64,000 nt of DNA, from contig NZ_JAKVBC010000007.1 in NCBI RefSeq assembly GCF_022447245.1, forward strand, positions 62,001 to 126,000. The letters are read 5' to 3'. Of the stretch, positions 45,068 through 57,347 are shown in pieces; position 1 is the first letter of the stretch, and the number at the start of each line of letters is the position of its first letter. The notes under the pieces were generated by a model. The model did not search any database, was not told the DNA's origin, and worked only from the letters and a program-made list of their open reading frames with translations. The stretch comes from Kordia sp. GTDB taxonomy: Bacteria > Bacteroidota > Bacteroidia > Flavobacteriales > Flavobacteriaceae. The position numbers and the translations under genes are program-made.

Positions 45068-45120
45068 TAAATGTAAAAGCTTCTTTTTTAGCTACTTTAA
45101 AAAAGAAGCTTTTACATTTA
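45068..45120. terminator. Bidirectional terminator between convergent genes
   Basis: A perfect 23-bp inverted repeat (arms 45068-45090 and 45098-45120) with a seven-base loop lies between a + strand T9SS gene and a - strand lipoprotein gene. Each arm ends with a short A/T run near the loop, so either transcript could stop there. Confidence 0.9.
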
Positions 45121-51044: not shown

Positions 51045-51081
51045 ATAACTCTTGTAGTACGGTTGGTACTACGAGAGTTAT
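51045..51081 (+). promoter_or_regulatory. Intercistronic hairpin between atpE and atpF
   Basis: A 16-bp inverted repeat (arms 51045-51060 and 51066-51081, one G-U) surrounds a five-base loop. It begins nine bases after the atpE stop. There is no T-run after it, so it is more likely an RNA-stabilising, processing or attenuating element than a full terminator. Confidence 0.7.
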
Positions 51082-52176: not shown

Positions 52177-53754
52177 ATGGCAGAAGTTAAAGCTGCTGAG
52201 GTATCAGCAATATTAAAAAAACAACTTTCAGGATTTGAAGCTACAGCTTCTCTTGATGAAGTTGGAACTGTACTACAAGTAGGTGATGGTATCGCTCGTG
52301 TTTACGGATTAGCTAACGCTCAATACGGAGAATTAGTAGAATTCGAAACAGGAATGGAAGGTATCGTATTGAACCTTGAAGAAGACAATGTTGGTGTGGT
52401 ATTATTAGGGCCTTCTAAAGAAATTAAAGAAGGAGCTACTGTAAAGCGTACACAGCGTATTGCTTCTATTAAGGTAGGAGAAGAAATGGTAGGACGTGTA
52501 GTTGATACGTTAGGAAATCCAATTGATGGAAAAGGACCAATCGGAGGCGATTTATATGAAATGCCTTTAGAGCGTAAAGCACCTGGAGTAATCTTCCGTC
52601 AGCCAGTAGATGAGCCAATGCAAACAGGTATCAAATCAATTGATGCAATGATTCCTGTAGGTAGAGGACAACGTGAGTTGGTAATTGGTGACCGTCAAAC
52701 TGGTAAAACAACTGTTTGTATCGATACAATTTTGAATCAAAAGGAATTTTACGATGCAGGTGAGCCAGTTTTCTGTGTATATGTTGCTGTTGGACAAAAA
52801 GCGTCAACTGTAGCAGGTATTGCTAAAACATTAGAAGAAAAAGGAGCATTAGCGTATACAGTAATTGTAGCAGCTAACGCATCAGATCCTGCACCAATGC
52901 AGGTATATGCACCATTCGCTGGAGCAGCAATCGGAGAATATTTCCGTGATACAGGTCGTCCTGCATTAATCGTGTATGATGATTTATCAAAACAAGCGGT
53001 TGCATACCGTGAGGTATCGTTATTATTACGTCGTCCACCAGGACGTGAGGCGTATCCAGGAGACGTTTTCTACCTTCACTCAAGATTATTAGAACGTGCT
53101 GCAAAAGTGATTGCAGATGATGATATCGCAAAAAATATGAATGATTTACCAGAATCATTAAAGCCAATCGTAAAAGGAGGTGGATCGTTAACAGCGCTAC
53201 CAATCATTGAAACACAAGCGGGAGACGTTTCTGCATATATTCCAACAAACGTAATTTCGATTACAGATGGACAGATTTTCTTAGAATCTGACTTATTTAA
53301 CTCTGGTGTTCGTCCAGCGATTAACGTAGGTATCTCGGTATCTCGTGTAGGAGGTTCGGCTCAGATTAAATCAATGAAAAAAGTATCTGGTACATTAAAA
53401 CTTGATCAAGCACAGTTCCGTGAATTAGAAGCATTCGCGAAATTTGGATCTGACTTAGATGCAGCAACTTTAAACGTAATTGAAAAAGGTAGACGTAACG
53501 TAGAAATCTTAAAGCAAGCACAAAACGATCCATACACAGTAGAAGATCAGGTTGCTATTATCTACGCTGGTTCTAAGAACCTATTAAAAGACGTTCCTGT
53601 AGAAAAAGTAAAAGAATTCGAAAGAGATTACATTGAGTTCTTAAACGCAAAACACAGAGGTGTTTTAGATACCTTAAAAGCAGGGAAATTAACAGACGAA
53701 GTTACAGATACGTTAACAACGGTTTGTAAAGAATTGTCTGCGAAATATAACTAA
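52177..53754 (+). CDS. atpA: ATP synthase F1 subunit alpha
   Basis: The 525-residue nucleotide-binding subunit has the P-loop GDRQTGKTT (about 171-179), [27 protein letters not shown] and SRVGGSAQ, all as expected. The first 25 residues bind the stalk. The stop is at 53752-53754, and the cassette of a four-helix-bundle gene starts immediately afterwards. Confidence 0.97.
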
Positions 53755-53758
53755 TTCT

Positions 53759-54155
53759 GAATTAAGAATTCTAAGTTCAGAATTAGGTAATGGCTTACAA
53801 GGAAAGAAACAATGTCGTTGTTGATAAAAGCTTTTATTTTGGTTGCGACATTGTTAATTTCTGTAAAGAATTAAAACAAAATCACAACTTTGAAATTGCG
53901 AGTCAATTAATAAGAGGTGGCACAAGTATAGGTGCAAACATCAGGGAATCATAACGTGGTGTTAGTACCAAAGACTTTAAAAATAAATTAAGTATTGCGC
54001 TAAAAGAAGCAGATGAAACGCTTTATTGGTTAGATATCATAGAGGAAACTACAATGCAGGTTCCAAATGATCTAAAAGCCAAATGTGAAGAACTAATCAA
54101 GCTTTTAGTTACAATAATTAAAAATTCATAATTAAGAATTCTGAATTCATAATTA
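53759..54155 (+). mobile_element. Four-helix-bundle cassette bounded by direct repeats
   Basis: A unit of about 397 bases sits between atpA and atpG. Its ends are 27-base direct repeats (53759-53785 and 54129-54155; 23 of 27 positions equal, with an exact 13-base core at 53760-53772 and 54130-54142). Each repeat is itself partly palindromic. The unit contains only a four-helix-bundle gene of the 23S rRNA intervening-sequence type. Insertion as a unit is inferred from these boundaries and from the usual uninterrupted atpA-atpG order. Confidence 0.6.
53790..54131 (+). pseudogene. Four-helix-bundle protein (23S rRNA IVS type), interrupted by TAA
   Basis: Read through, 113 codons give MAYKERNNVV...FEIASQLIRGGTSIGANIRES, a stop, then RGVSTKDFKNKLSIALKEAD and a last helix. 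This is the S23/IVP four-helix-bundle family found in 23S rRNA intervening sequences and elsewhere. The TAA at 53952-53954 stands where relatives have Gln (RESQRG), so one C-to-T change from CAA explains it, and the frame is otherwise intact. The 54-residue front piece holds only about half the bundle. The family is small and basic, without an assigned enzymatic role. Confidence 0.88.
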
Positions 54156-54161
54156 CAAAAG

Positions 54162-55022
54162 ATGGCAAACTTAAAAGAAATACGTAATAGAATTGGTTCT
54201 GTAAAATCAACAATGCAGATTACGAGTGCTATGAAAATGGTATCGGCAGCAAAGTTGAAAAAAGCACAAGACGCGATCACTGCGATGCGTCCGTATGCTA
54301 ATAAATTGACAGAATTACTACAAAGTTTAAGCGCAACATTAGATGCAGATAGCGGAAGTAAATTTGCAGAACAACGCGAAGTAAGCAAAGTATTATTAGT
54401 AGCTATTACATCTAACAGAGGATTGTGTGGAGCGTTTAACTCTAACATCATCAAACAATCAAACAACCTTATCAACAATGTATATGCTGGAAAACAGGTA
54501 GATGTATTGACGATCGGGAAAAAAGGAAACGATATTTTATCAAAAACAAATACGATTGTTGAAAATCGTAGTGATGTTTTTGATGCGTTAACGTTTGATA
54601 ATGTAGCAGCAATTGCTGACAAGCTGATGGAATTGTTTGAAGCAGGATCGTATGACAAAATCGAACTTGTATACAACAAATTCAAAAATGCAGCGACACA
54701 AATCGTAATGACAGAGCAATTCTTACCAATTGTACCTGCGGAATCTGATGCAAATGTTCAACTAGATTATATTTTTGAGCCATCAAAAGAAGAAATTGTT
54801 GAAGGATTGATTCCAAAGTCATTAAAGACACAATTATTCAAAGCAATCAGAGACTCTTTTGCAAGTGAGCACGGAGCGCGTATGACGGCGATGCACAAAG
54901 CAACGGACAACGCCGCAGAGTTAAGAGACTCATTAACGTTGACATACAACAAAGCACGTCAGGCTGCTATTACAAACGAAATCTTAGAAATCGTTGGTGG
55001 AGCAGAAGCTTTAAATAACTAA
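54162..55022 (+). CDS. atpG: ATP synthase F1 subunit gamma
   Basis: The 286-residue central shaft has the conserved N-terminal coiled coil (NLKEIRNRIGSVKSTMQIT, about 3-21, then AMKMVSAAKLKKAQ), the SNRGLCGAFN motif (about 87-96) and the C-terminal coil ending in NKARQAAITNEILEIVGGAEA. It is intact despite the inserted cassette just upstream. Genes for beta and epsilon are not in the window, as is usual for the phylum. A terminator follows at 55072. Confidence 0.96.
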   Translation: MANLKEIRNRIGSVKSTMQITSAMKMVSAAKLKKAQDAITAMRPYANKLTELLQSLSATLDADSGSKFAEQREVSKVLLVAITSNRGLCGAFNSNIIKQSNNLINNVYAGKQVDVLTIGKKGNDILSKTNTIVENRSDVFDALTFDNVAAIADKLMELFEAGSYDKIELVYNKFKNAATQIVMTEQFLPIVPAESDANVQLDYIFEPSKEEIVEGLIPKSLKTQLFKAIRDSFASEHGARMTAMHKATDNAAELRDSLTLTYNKARQAAITNEILEIVGGAEALNN

Positions 55023-55824
55023 AATAATATGTACACTGAGCGAAGTCGAAGTGTACTGAACGTAGAATATAAAAAACCTCATGTAAACATGAGGTTTTTC
55101 ATTTTTATATCATTTGATTCGTTATTACGAGGAAGCATGACGAAGTAATCTGTCAAACTAGTATTTGAAACGTCTTTGCGAACGCAGTGAAGCAATCTGC
55201 CTAAATCATACATAAAGCAGTATACGAAATAAACAGGCTGCCACGTCATACTTCCTCGCAGTGACGTATCAAAAAGTTTTCCAACCGTCAGATCGAGTGG
55301 TAAATCAAAGATTCGTTGTATCGAGATCAGCTCAGAACTTCAAAGTTTTCTCGATACAATTCGCTTAGGCAAATCACTCAAAGTGACGCTTAGATTTCAC
55401 AGAAAAACAAATCCACAAAAAACGAATTAACAAAAAGCAAGAGTAAGCAATCTAATAGCGTATCGCTCTAACATCTAACAGTGTAAGCGTGTCTAAAAAA
55501 AGTGTTCACACTCAGCGAAGTCAAAATAAAAAAATCGCGGGAATCCACAACTTCAAATATCAAATTCATTTATAAATAGACTGCCACGTCATACTTCCTC
55601 GCAGTGACGAATAAACAAACCCCCAAAAAACAATAAAAACACGCAATAGGAAATAATTTAACAGCGAAGCGCTCTAAGAGATTTCCGCCTAAGCGGAAAT
55701 AAATCTAATAGTATAAGCGTGTCTAAAAGCACAGCGTTCTAAAAAAATATTCACACTGAGCGAAGTCGAAGTGTAACATTTTCAAAAAACTGTATCTAAA
55801 GGGAAAATCAAAAAAACAAACAGT
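55023..55824. repeat. Non-coding stretch made of several dispersed repeats
   Basis: About 800 bases carry no gene. A 21-base repeat that can fold on itself occurs exactly at 55034-55054 and 55754-55774, with a partial copy at 55508-55521. A 29-base repeat occurs exactly at 55238-55266 and 55581-55609; a 15-base part recurs inverted at 55128-55142 with one mismatch. An inverted repeat spans 55316-55326 and 55349-55359. A 20-base unit at 55368-55387 recurs inverted at 58030-58049 (19 of 20). The elements resemble short REP/MITE-like sequences of flavobacterial intergenic DNA. Confidence 0.8.
55072..55104 (+). terminator. Rho-independent terminator after atpG
   Basis: A 12-13-bp stem (arms 55072-55084 and 55087-55099) with a tight loop ends in TTTTT, and CATTTTTAT follows. 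It lies about 50 bases after the atpG stop and probably ends the operon. Confidence 0.88.
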
Positions 55825-56670
55825 ATGCAAACCTTTAGAAAAATACTCATTGTACTAACCATTTTAATAAGTTACACAGTACAATCACAAGAAACCGCAT
55901 TCCAAGTAAAAGTTACAGGAAAAGGAGATCCTGTTTTACTCTTTCCAGGATTTAGTTGTACAGACGATGTTTGGGAAGACACCGTAAAAGAACTTTCCAA
56001 AACCCACGAATGTCATATATTCACTTTTGCAGGATTTGGAGATGTACCTGCGATTGAATCTCCTTGGTTAGAAACCATTAAAAATGATGTTTCAACATAC
56101 GTAACTCGTAAAAAACTGCACAAACCTACAATTATCGGGCATAGCATGGGCGGAACGTTAGCGTTGTGGTTGGCTTCAGAAAACCCAAACACCTACAAGC
56201 AATTAATCATCGTAGACGGATTGGCAAGTATTGGAGCTTTAATGATCCCTAATTTCTCAAGTGACAAAGTAAGTTACGACAATCCGTTTGCCAAGCAGCA
56301 ATTAAAAATGGATACTACTGCTTTCAACAAAATGGCAACACAAATGGCAGCAGGAATGACTTTGAATAAGGAAAAACAACCGCAAATCGTTGCGTGGATG
56401 GAGCAAGCGGATAGAAAAACCTATGTGTATGGATATATTGATTTAATGAAATTGGACTTGCGTGAAAATATTCAAAACATACAAATTCCTGTAACCATCA
56501 TGGCGGCAGTTAGTTTTTATCCAAAACCACAAGTAGAAAAATTATACACAGAACAATATCAAAAATTGACTAACAAAAATATTTTATATGTTGAAAACTC
56601 AGCACACTTTATTATGTTTGACCAAGCAGATTGGTTTTTAAAAGAAGTTTTGAAAGTAGTTAAGGGTTAA
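55825..56670 (+). CDS. Secreted alpha/beta hydrolase
   Basis: The 281-residue protein has a signal peptide (1-22, ending VQSQ) and an alpha/beta-hydrolase fold. The nucleophile Ser lies in GHSMGGT (about 110-116), the oxyanion strand is LLFPGFSCTDDVW (about 39-51), and NSAHFIMFDQ near the C-terminus gives the catalytic His. An ester or lactone substrate is likely but not identified. It stands alone after the repeat region and has no obvious promoter in the repeats. Confidence 0.88.
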   Translation: MQTFRKILIVLTILISYTVQSQETAFQVKVTGKGDPVLLFPGFSCTDDVWEDTVKELSKTHECHIFTFAGFGDVPAIESPWLETIKNDVSTYVTRKKLHKPTIIGHSMGGTLALWLASENPNTYKQLIIVDGLASIGALMIPNFSSDKVSYDNPFAKQQLKMDTTAFNKMATQMAAGMTLNKEKQPQIVAWMEQADRKTYVYGYIDLMKLDLRENIQNIQIPVTIMAAVSFYPKPQVEKLYTEQYQKLTNKNILYVENSAHFIMFDQADWFLKEVLKVVKG

Positions 56671-56795: not shown

Positions 56796-56851
56796 AAAAC
56801 CCAAAACCCAAAACCCAAAACCTAAAACCCAAAACCTAAAACCCAAAACCT
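56796..56851 (+). repeat. Eight tandem heptamers AAAACCY before the sigma factor
   Basis: Eight head-to-tail seven-base units, five AAAACCC and three AAAACCT, occupy 56796-56851 and end eight bases before the sigma factor start. Copy number could vary by slippage. A similar but degenerate A/C-rich tract occurs at about 60284-60315 before dut. Confidence 0.9.
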
Positions 56852-56858
56852 AGAAAAA

Positions 56859-57347
56859 TTGTCACAACAATTTACAAACATATACAAAGATCACTATGAC
56901 AAAGTCTACAGGCTGTGTCTCGGATACGTCAATGGAGATGAAACAGTAGCGAAAGACTTGGCACAAGAAGTTTTCATAAAAGTCTGGGAACATTTGGATC
57001 AATTCAAACAAAAATCCAGCATAGGAACTTGGATCTACCGAATCACAGTCAATACGTGCTTACTATTCATCCGAAAAAACAAAAAAAGAAGCTATAATTT
57101 GCCCGAAACACAAGAAGATGATCACAATGTAGAAGAAGAAGAAAAAGTGCATCAAAATCGTTTAAAACAAATGTATGCGTGTATTCAACAACTCAAAGAA
57201 ACGGAACGAATCGTCATCTTATTAGTCTTAGAAGGCTTACCACAAAAAGAAATCTCGGAAATCACTGGGCATTCACACCAAAACATTCGCGTAATGGTAC
57301 ACAGAATCAAAGAAAAACTCACAAAATGCGTCTCTCATGGAATTTAA
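56859..57347 (+). CDS. ECF-type RNA polymerase sigma factor
   Basis: This 162-residue sigma-70 family protein has region 2 (YDKVYRLCLGYV and DLAQEVFIKVWEHLDQF, about 13-57) and region 4 with helix-turn-helix EISEITGHSHQNIRVMVHRIK (about 133-153). Regions 1 and 3 are absent, as in ECF factors. The start is TTG at 56859, just after the heptamer tract; I see no better ATG. The stop overlaps the next gene by 11 bases, and that membrane protein is the likely partner. Target genes are not apparent. Confidence 0.9.
   Translation: MSQQFTNIYKDHYDKVYRLCLGYVNGDETVAKDLAQEVFIKVWEHLDQFKQKSSIGTWIYRITVNTCLLFIRKNKKRSYNLPETQEDDHNVEEEEKVHQNRLKQMYACIQQLKETERIVILLVLEGLPQKEISEITGHSHQNIRVMVHRIKEKLTKCVSHGI

Follow-up and report, generated by a model that had tools for sequence, protein, structure and literature searches.

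A four-helix-bundle gene cassette between atpA and atpG of Kordia: a candidate intervening-sequence-type element in mRNA

The closest described counterparts of the DNA considered here are the intervening sequences (IVSs) of bacterial rRNA: passages of PMC4990558 describe units of 428-444 nt in Coxiella and Leptospira, with complementary ends and an S23p ORF, which are excised by RNase III. Short intergenic repeats are also relevant. Parts of PMC4679880 report the heptamer TAACTGA in intergenic DNA of Beggiatoaceae, cyanobacteria and five Bacteroidetes, and parts of PMC4692102 report the heptamers GGGAATC and GGGGA(T/C)T in Xanthomonas and Nostoc, those of Xanthomonas often forming convergent inverted pairs (70 in Xcc, 75 in Xac); the main texts of these two papers contain no mention of FHB or IVS terms. 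The four-helix-bundle (FHB) family PF05635 is said in a passage of PMC10053308 to resemble Avd, and in the portions of PMC5524665 and PMC8700078 that name them FHB genes appear only in gene lists. We found no description of FHB elements in operons in the open-licence literature; an account elsewhere is possible.

As a class, elements like the cassette between atpA and atpG of a Kordia genome (G000) share with 23S rRNA IVSs their protein family, a similar size and complementary ends around an ORF; as with IVSs, RNA continuity seems dispensable where they sit, and the ORF is decaying in some lineages. Unlike rRNA IVSs, the elements described below lie between operon genes or inside protein genes, in several copies per genome. 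Their arms consist of 7- or 8-nt units that are locus-specific and appear to evolve in concert. Because the cassette is outside an rRNA gene, and because we only infer its excision, it does not belong to the rRNA IVS class as defined, but it is built like a member. With the intergenic heptamer repeats it has in common tandem 7-nt units in mainly intergenic DNA; the heptamer papers describe one motif per organism, whereas each locus considered here has a motif of its own, and an FHB gene lies between the arms. On balance, we think it probable that the cassette is an IVS-type element residing in mRNA instead of rRNA, and it looks like one case of a widespread kind of insertion element, undescribed as far as the literature could be searched.

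The cassette and its surroundings

In the window, by which we mean the whole 64,000-nt stretch that was analysed, the cassette and its host genes are arranged as follows.

52177..53754, + strand: atpA, upstream host gene, ORF of 525 aa
53752/3-53785, + strand: 5' arm, a near-palindrome of 7-nt units (TTCTGAA TTAAGAA TTCTAAG TTCAGAA TTA), overlapping the atpA stop codon
53790..54131, + strand: four-helix-bundle (FHB) gene, PF05635, broken; 113 codons, ATG at 53790, stop at 54129-54131
54123..54155, + strand: 3' arm of 7-nt units (AATTCAT AATTAAG AATTCTG AATTCAT AATTA), covering the C-terminal codons and stop of the FHB gene
54162..55022, + strand: atpG, downstream host gene, ORF of 286 aa, ATG at 54162

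The original prediction read the middle of this arrangement as a gene of the 23S rRNA IVS type between atpA and atpG, and the gene does match PF05635 and does lie between the atpA stop codon (TAA, 53752-53754), where the 5' arm starts, and the atpG start codon. It was also right that the gene is dead through one stop and that the operon around it is intact: a single in-frame TAA at 53952-53954 breaks a frame of 113 codons that is uninterrupted in the orthologues of the sister species G001 and G002 at the same junction, and the atp ORFs on either side are both open. Orthologues of atpG are present in 11 of 11 genus genomes. The direct repeats of 27 bases, 23 of them equal, that had been taken as its borders are reproduced at some offsets; the full arms, of 33 nt each, are identical at 28 of 33 positions as direct repeats. 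Each arm is a near-palindrome (the repeats had been called partly palindromic), and the two arms are therefore complementary to each other as well, at 27 of 33 positions. What had gone unremarked is that the arms are arrays of 7-nt units, complementary across the two sides, and that they differ at other loci. In the predicted minimum-energy fold of the window copy the 5' arm closes on itself. Rfam gave no match on the cassette, and two sub-threshold matches at 55021-55131.

Several further repeats were noted in the window. A 19-nt repeat, ACTGAGCGAAGTCGAAGTG, occurs at 55035-55053 and 55755-55773, in intergenic DNA 3' of atpG, with a related stretch at 55509. At 56796-56851 (+ strand), between ORFs at 55825-56670 and 56859-57347, a possibly related array of eight tandem AAAACCC/AAAACCT 7-mers stands without an FHB gene. 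A crude hairpin scan of the window, which missed the cassette's own arms, returned two hairpins, one at 45068-45120 (an inverted repeat of 23 bp with a 7-nt loop and zero mismatches scored) and one at 51045-51081.

Junctions with and without the gene

FHB genes are common in these bacteria. A PF05635 search finds seven in this genome (nine matches, two genes being split; loci L105-L111) and 82 FHB places in the genus, spread over all 11 genomes, each a different species (86 raw matches merged), so that the gene is far from being always found at one place. In a sample of the phylum 116 of 148 genomes carry FHB, compared with 0 of 14 control genomes. The elements, comprising 5' arm, FHB gene and 3' arm, measure about 0.40-0.52 kb, and the other genus copies are, like the cassette, flanked by protein-coding ORFs rather than lying inside rRNA genes. 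A scan of viral contigs with one FHB query, which detects close relatives only, returned no relative. At five loci (L238, L243, L252, L257 and L262) FHB genes with complementary arms lie on contigs of metagenome bins assigned to other phyla, possibly through misbinning.

Orientation is strict. Throughout the genus the upstream neighbour is co-directional with FHB (82/82), as is the downstream neighbour in 81 of 82 cases by a crude ORF call; the sole exception, L059, is a call error, a co-directional gene lying 201 nt further on. Among 110 further loci, made up of the 30 best-scoring from the phylum sample and 80 named ones, some from isolated strains, co-directional neighbours make up 99 of the 107 called upstream and 98 of the 106 called downstream. 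The genus places fall under 23 junction labels, none of which is occupied in all 11 genomes. The gene names in these labels (sufA-sufB, ffh-folD, scoA-scoB etc.) are presumptive ones, read from protein ends, and polX and panB are nicknames.

At atpA-atpG itself the FHB proteins form one clade (support 97/96), and the arms are of an AATTCAT type in G000, G001 and G002 and of an AACTCAT type in G003, G005, G007 and G008. The same junction holds FHB in two other genera, G363 and G332 (frame broken), one resembling each arm type; given this split, arm type at atpA-atpG tracks FHB lineage. In the remaining four species of the genus the junction is 115-122 nt long and has complementary arms but no FHB. 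Beyond the genus we fetched 29 atpA-atpG junctions from the 59 other genera of the family that have atpG. Two of the 29 contain FHB (404 and 432 nt), and at the remaining 27 the gap ranges from 12 to 173 nt; gaps of 12, 24 and 27 nt among them supply the (near-)empty site in relatives that had been suggested as a check. Some of these 27 junctions have arms-only hairpins, four scoring at least 13 and two weaker, all of the same polarity. With FHB at many operon junctions and sites free of it in relatives, the earlier idea of a self-contained unit related to the 23S rRNA IVS stands.

Other junctions vary in comparable ways. At sufA-sufB, G010 has a gap of 30 nt, G000 and G009 retain remnants of FHB, and the FHB of G007 is divergent; the FHB clade of this junction is weakly supported (86/54). 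At ffh-folD, where some relatives carry an FHB element, G004 has several dozen tandem CCAACAG 7-mers (L127), and 7-mer arrays without FHB are found there in both G004 and G001. Since arms-only hairpins and unmatched 7-mer arrays both occur at these junctions, arms may not depend on FHB.

At three loci, in three genomes of different families (L148, L164 and L173), the element lies inside a protein-coding gene whose frame is open throughout, so that the same DNA is read in two frames, one for FHB and one for the host protein; at the other 189 of the 192 loci no other frame is open across the element. L148 and L164 seem to have homologous hosts. Judging by motifs, the in-gene hosts may be DNA methylases. 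Homologues of the L148 host that lack the element are 85 and 87% identical to it over 121 downstream residues and have a short variable linker at the point in question; the comparison of occupied with empty gene thus swaps a variable linker, and no target-site duplication is readable from it.

Could FHB nevertheless be an ordinary operon gene, vertically inherited, with arms that are no more than intercistronic hairpins tuning the translation or decay of the neighbours? Most junction groups do form one FHB clade (ffh-folD, with support 98/92, as well as atpA-atpG), and in a second genus of the same family, g2, the element is kept at one junction in 27 of 29 readable loci and encodes a protein with a dN/dS of about 0.1. 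(Thirty g2 loci were fetched from 118 genomes with a match; L202 and L204 lack the element, and the sequence of L203 stops 105 nt short of the gene.) The same-polarity arms-only hairpins at atpA-atpG, ten loci in all including six in other genera, two of these six weak, are also what such a model would expect. It accounts poorly for patchy presence across 23 junction labels none of which is filled in every genome, for near-empty sites, for copies inside coding genes and for host operons that, by our reading of gene ends, have no common function. We consider a resident gene of this kind unlikely, and prefer an IVS-type element in mRNA.

Arms that pair and change together

To score a pair of arms, we aligned the 5' flank locally with the reverse-complemented 3' flank. 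In the genus an element's own arm pair averages 16.1, compared with 8.3 for pairs assembled from other junctions, and own arms exceed at least 95% of mismatched pairs in 70 of 82 loci and at least 99% in 52. The 110 further loci behave similarly (averages of 15.5 for own and 8.7 for mismatched pairs, the latter unscreened for shared junctions; at least 95% in 74 loci, at least 99% in 46). The 95% test is failed by 12 of the 82 genus loci and 36 of the 110 others. The flanks match themselves best at lags of 7, 14 and 21 nt, and a lesser maximum is seen at 8. Of the 138 arms in the phylum set, 96 have 7 as their best period and 31 have 8, a peak that shuffled arms lack. The arms are also polar relative to transcription: 58 of 65 genus pairs have an excess of G over C 5' of the gene and of C over G 3' of it, and the same G-rich 5' and C-rich 3' sides recur in 61 of 68 phylum-set pairs, one tie omitted (polarity and period counts leave out arms scoring below 13, which keeps 65 of 82 genus loci and 69 of 110 others). 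Taken over the class as a whole, pairing of the arms, as predicted from sequence, is well supported. Their sequence differs from locus to locus, with no terminal sequence common to loci, and the expectation that the same 27-base ends would recur at other copies accordingly fails: every locus has its own arms.

One might suspect that such arrays are a by-product, with 7-mers arising and decaying by replication slippage and palindrome correction, devoid of function, and FHB merely persisting nearby. Heptamers are over-represented among bacterial repeats according to parts of PMC4692102, and arrays without FHB do exist, at ffh-folD in G004 and G001 and at 56796-56851 in the window. We nonetheless regard this as very improbable, given that flanks score at least 13 at 76% of the 82 FHB genes but only at 8% of 188 control genes from the same loci (one control reaches 24.5), and given the covariation between orthologous copies to which we now turn.

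Orthologous g2 elements offer a view of how arms change. Two sets of 26 copies were used: one, for duplex energies and dN/dS, consists of open frames (G165 out, G230 in), and the other, for a helix alignment, of gaps of 450-560 nt (G230 out, G165 in). Duplexes formed by a copy's own arms have a computed energy of -36.3 kcal/mol, compared with -27.8 kcal/mol for arms of different species (26 copies; permutation p 5e-5). In a 38-bp helix written from one member, L176, 78.8% of cells are paired (71.5% in shuffles), 94 cells are double-changed (55.6+-5.1 in shuffles) and covariation is 0.204 (0.112+-0.010 in shuffles, and at most 0.095 in slid versions); for each of these measures 0 of 500 shuffles were as high, a significance that the shuffles overstate because the alignment rows are related. 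Two other measures of the same helix show no excess over shuffles, namely pairs changed on both sides (17, shuffles 17.1) and pair types (32, shuffles 35.4), and an RNAalifold consensus on the arm blocks contains 8 arm pairs only.

One position of the 8-nt g2 unit, picked after viewing the pair table and scored four times per arm (five cells being unscorable), has a single state at all scorable copies in both arms in 22 of 26 rows. Twelve rows have one state, ten the other and four are mixed, with a concordance of 0.97 compared with 0.65 when shuffled. Each state may belong to a clade of its own. But one switch between clades would by itself imply that every unit in both arms had undergone the same change; to judge from these alignments, unit change in g2 arms looks concerted.

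Movement, the FHB protein and a proposed mechanism

In the genus FHB tree the fadA-acdh junction requires three label changes, a point that also stands against a resident operon gene, and hcdh-thiolase requires two. The tree has few columns and some long branches, and a single arrival with later departures could also account for it. Elements at different junctions share arms in 3 of 4 pairs when FHB identity is 80-90%, in 4 of 9 at 70-80%, in 8% of 162 at 60-70% (the background being set at 5%) and, at 50-60%, rise above the arm background in 4% of 2545 pairs; several pairs have defects (L217 runs into a contig edge, and L232 and L234 share a junction), so that the test is only suggestive. It points to a unit that takes its arms along when it moves, the arms afterwards diverging faster than the protein. 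At L189 (G230), before a MINLFNTH gene, the tail and 3' arm of a second element, which resembles another lineage, come after a full one, a sign of replacement by recombination. Mobility of the FHB element is thus indicated, and the earlier claim of a mobile element holds in part: the FHB tree and the sharing of arms at different junctions speak for it, but between near-identical strains no fresh insertion with clean borders was seen.

How would such a unit move? It may be tempting to think of a DNA transposon relic, or of a MITE- or REP-like unit whose arms serve as terminal inverted repeats for a transposase acting in trans. Like MITEs and REPs it has short inverted-repeat units and gene-less versions, and FHB-bearing and arms-only forms recall autonomous and non-autonomous ones; moreover, some close FHB genes at different junctions do have common arms. 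Unlike MITEs and REPs, it has no constant terminal sequence and left no target duplication that we could read, and its orientation in the genus is always that of the transcript, a strictness that a DNA transposon would not be expected to show. Y1 transposase was found in 6 of the 11 carrier genomes and not in the other five, with G009 and G010 having neither Y1 nor the reverse transcriptase domain RVT_1. The transposon reading strikes us as improbable. RVT_1 was found in 5 of 11 carriers and is absent from G000 and from the one-contig G006. These two families, the ones that were searched, were each found in only part of the 11 carriers, and we reject both as obligatory helpers.

As to the protein, the g2 FHB product matches two solved structures, 2gsc (XCC0516; E 7e-22) and 2rld (E 2e-8), which are sequence homologues of FHB and structures of uncharacterised proteins; TIGR02436 matches part of the G002 orthologue and one g2 homologue. 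Median dN/dS in g2 is 0.12 (304 usable of 325 pairs), and 0.087 for the 59 closer pairs. This is purifying selection, which argues that the FHB product is used in g2. The protein is also a distant homologue of the Avd protein of diversity-generating retroelements, and one could propose on that ground a related retroelement in which FHB acts as Avd for a reverse transcriptase. The Avd model NF033474 matches one g2 protein weakly (E 7e-5; 23.1 bits, cut-off 80) and a second g2 protein not at all, to which may be added the remark on PF05635 and Avd cited above. But unlike Avd systems, 6 of 11 carriers have no reverse transcriptase that we could find, and G006 appears to be a complete carrier genome without one. 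This last reading can hardly be credited.

In G000 at least 5 of 7 FHB copies are broken, compared with 6 of 75 in ten relatives (Fisher p 3e-4); in G006, for instance, 7 of 8 are open. G000 is a draft of 82 contigs, and its ffh-folD copy, counted as open, has a shifted C-terminus. It is as if something on which FHB copies depend had been lost here. With so many broken copies, this genome is ill suited to observing the element in action.

For the IVS-type element in mRNA that we favour, we propose the following mechanism. A unit of about 0.4-0.5 kb would occupy a place that is transcribed and tolerates insertion, usually between operon genes and in rare cases within a protein gene. After transcription both arms would pair into a stem, with the FHB frame enclosed in its loop. 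By analogy with rRNA IVSs, a double-strand RNase such as RNase III might then cut the unit out or at least separate the cistrons, and an insertion would cost the operon little because of this excision or separation. The FHB protein, whose solved Xanthomonas homologue is a pentamer, would bind the element RNA and serve the element. Slippage within one arm, combined with template correction from the other, could change the unit sequence and keep the pairing; arms would differ between loci and lineages and still match each other because near-identical unit arrays slip and are corrected.

A bolder version of this proposal, which we put forward tentatively and hold to be somewhat less likely than not, is that of a selfish element class spread across most of one phylum and hidden in transcripts, each a 0.4-0.5 kb unit with a small protein gene inside a long RNA stem of 7- or 8-nt units that rewrite themselves in concert and so leave loci with no terminal sequence in common, of which class rRNA IVSs would be the rRNA-dwelling branch and heptamer repeats possibly remnants. 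It would offer a possible source for unexplained 7-nt intergenic repeats in other bacteria. More immediately, ordinary operons hold IVS-like units whose genes are open and under selection, and relatives have near-empty sites; this brings excision, the function of the protein and movement within reach of experiment. It is unusual for both arms of a putative stem to change in concert, with pairing kept and sequence replaced unit by unit. And small FHB genes in essential operons, including the dual-frame copies inside genes, may be insertions rather than members of the operon.
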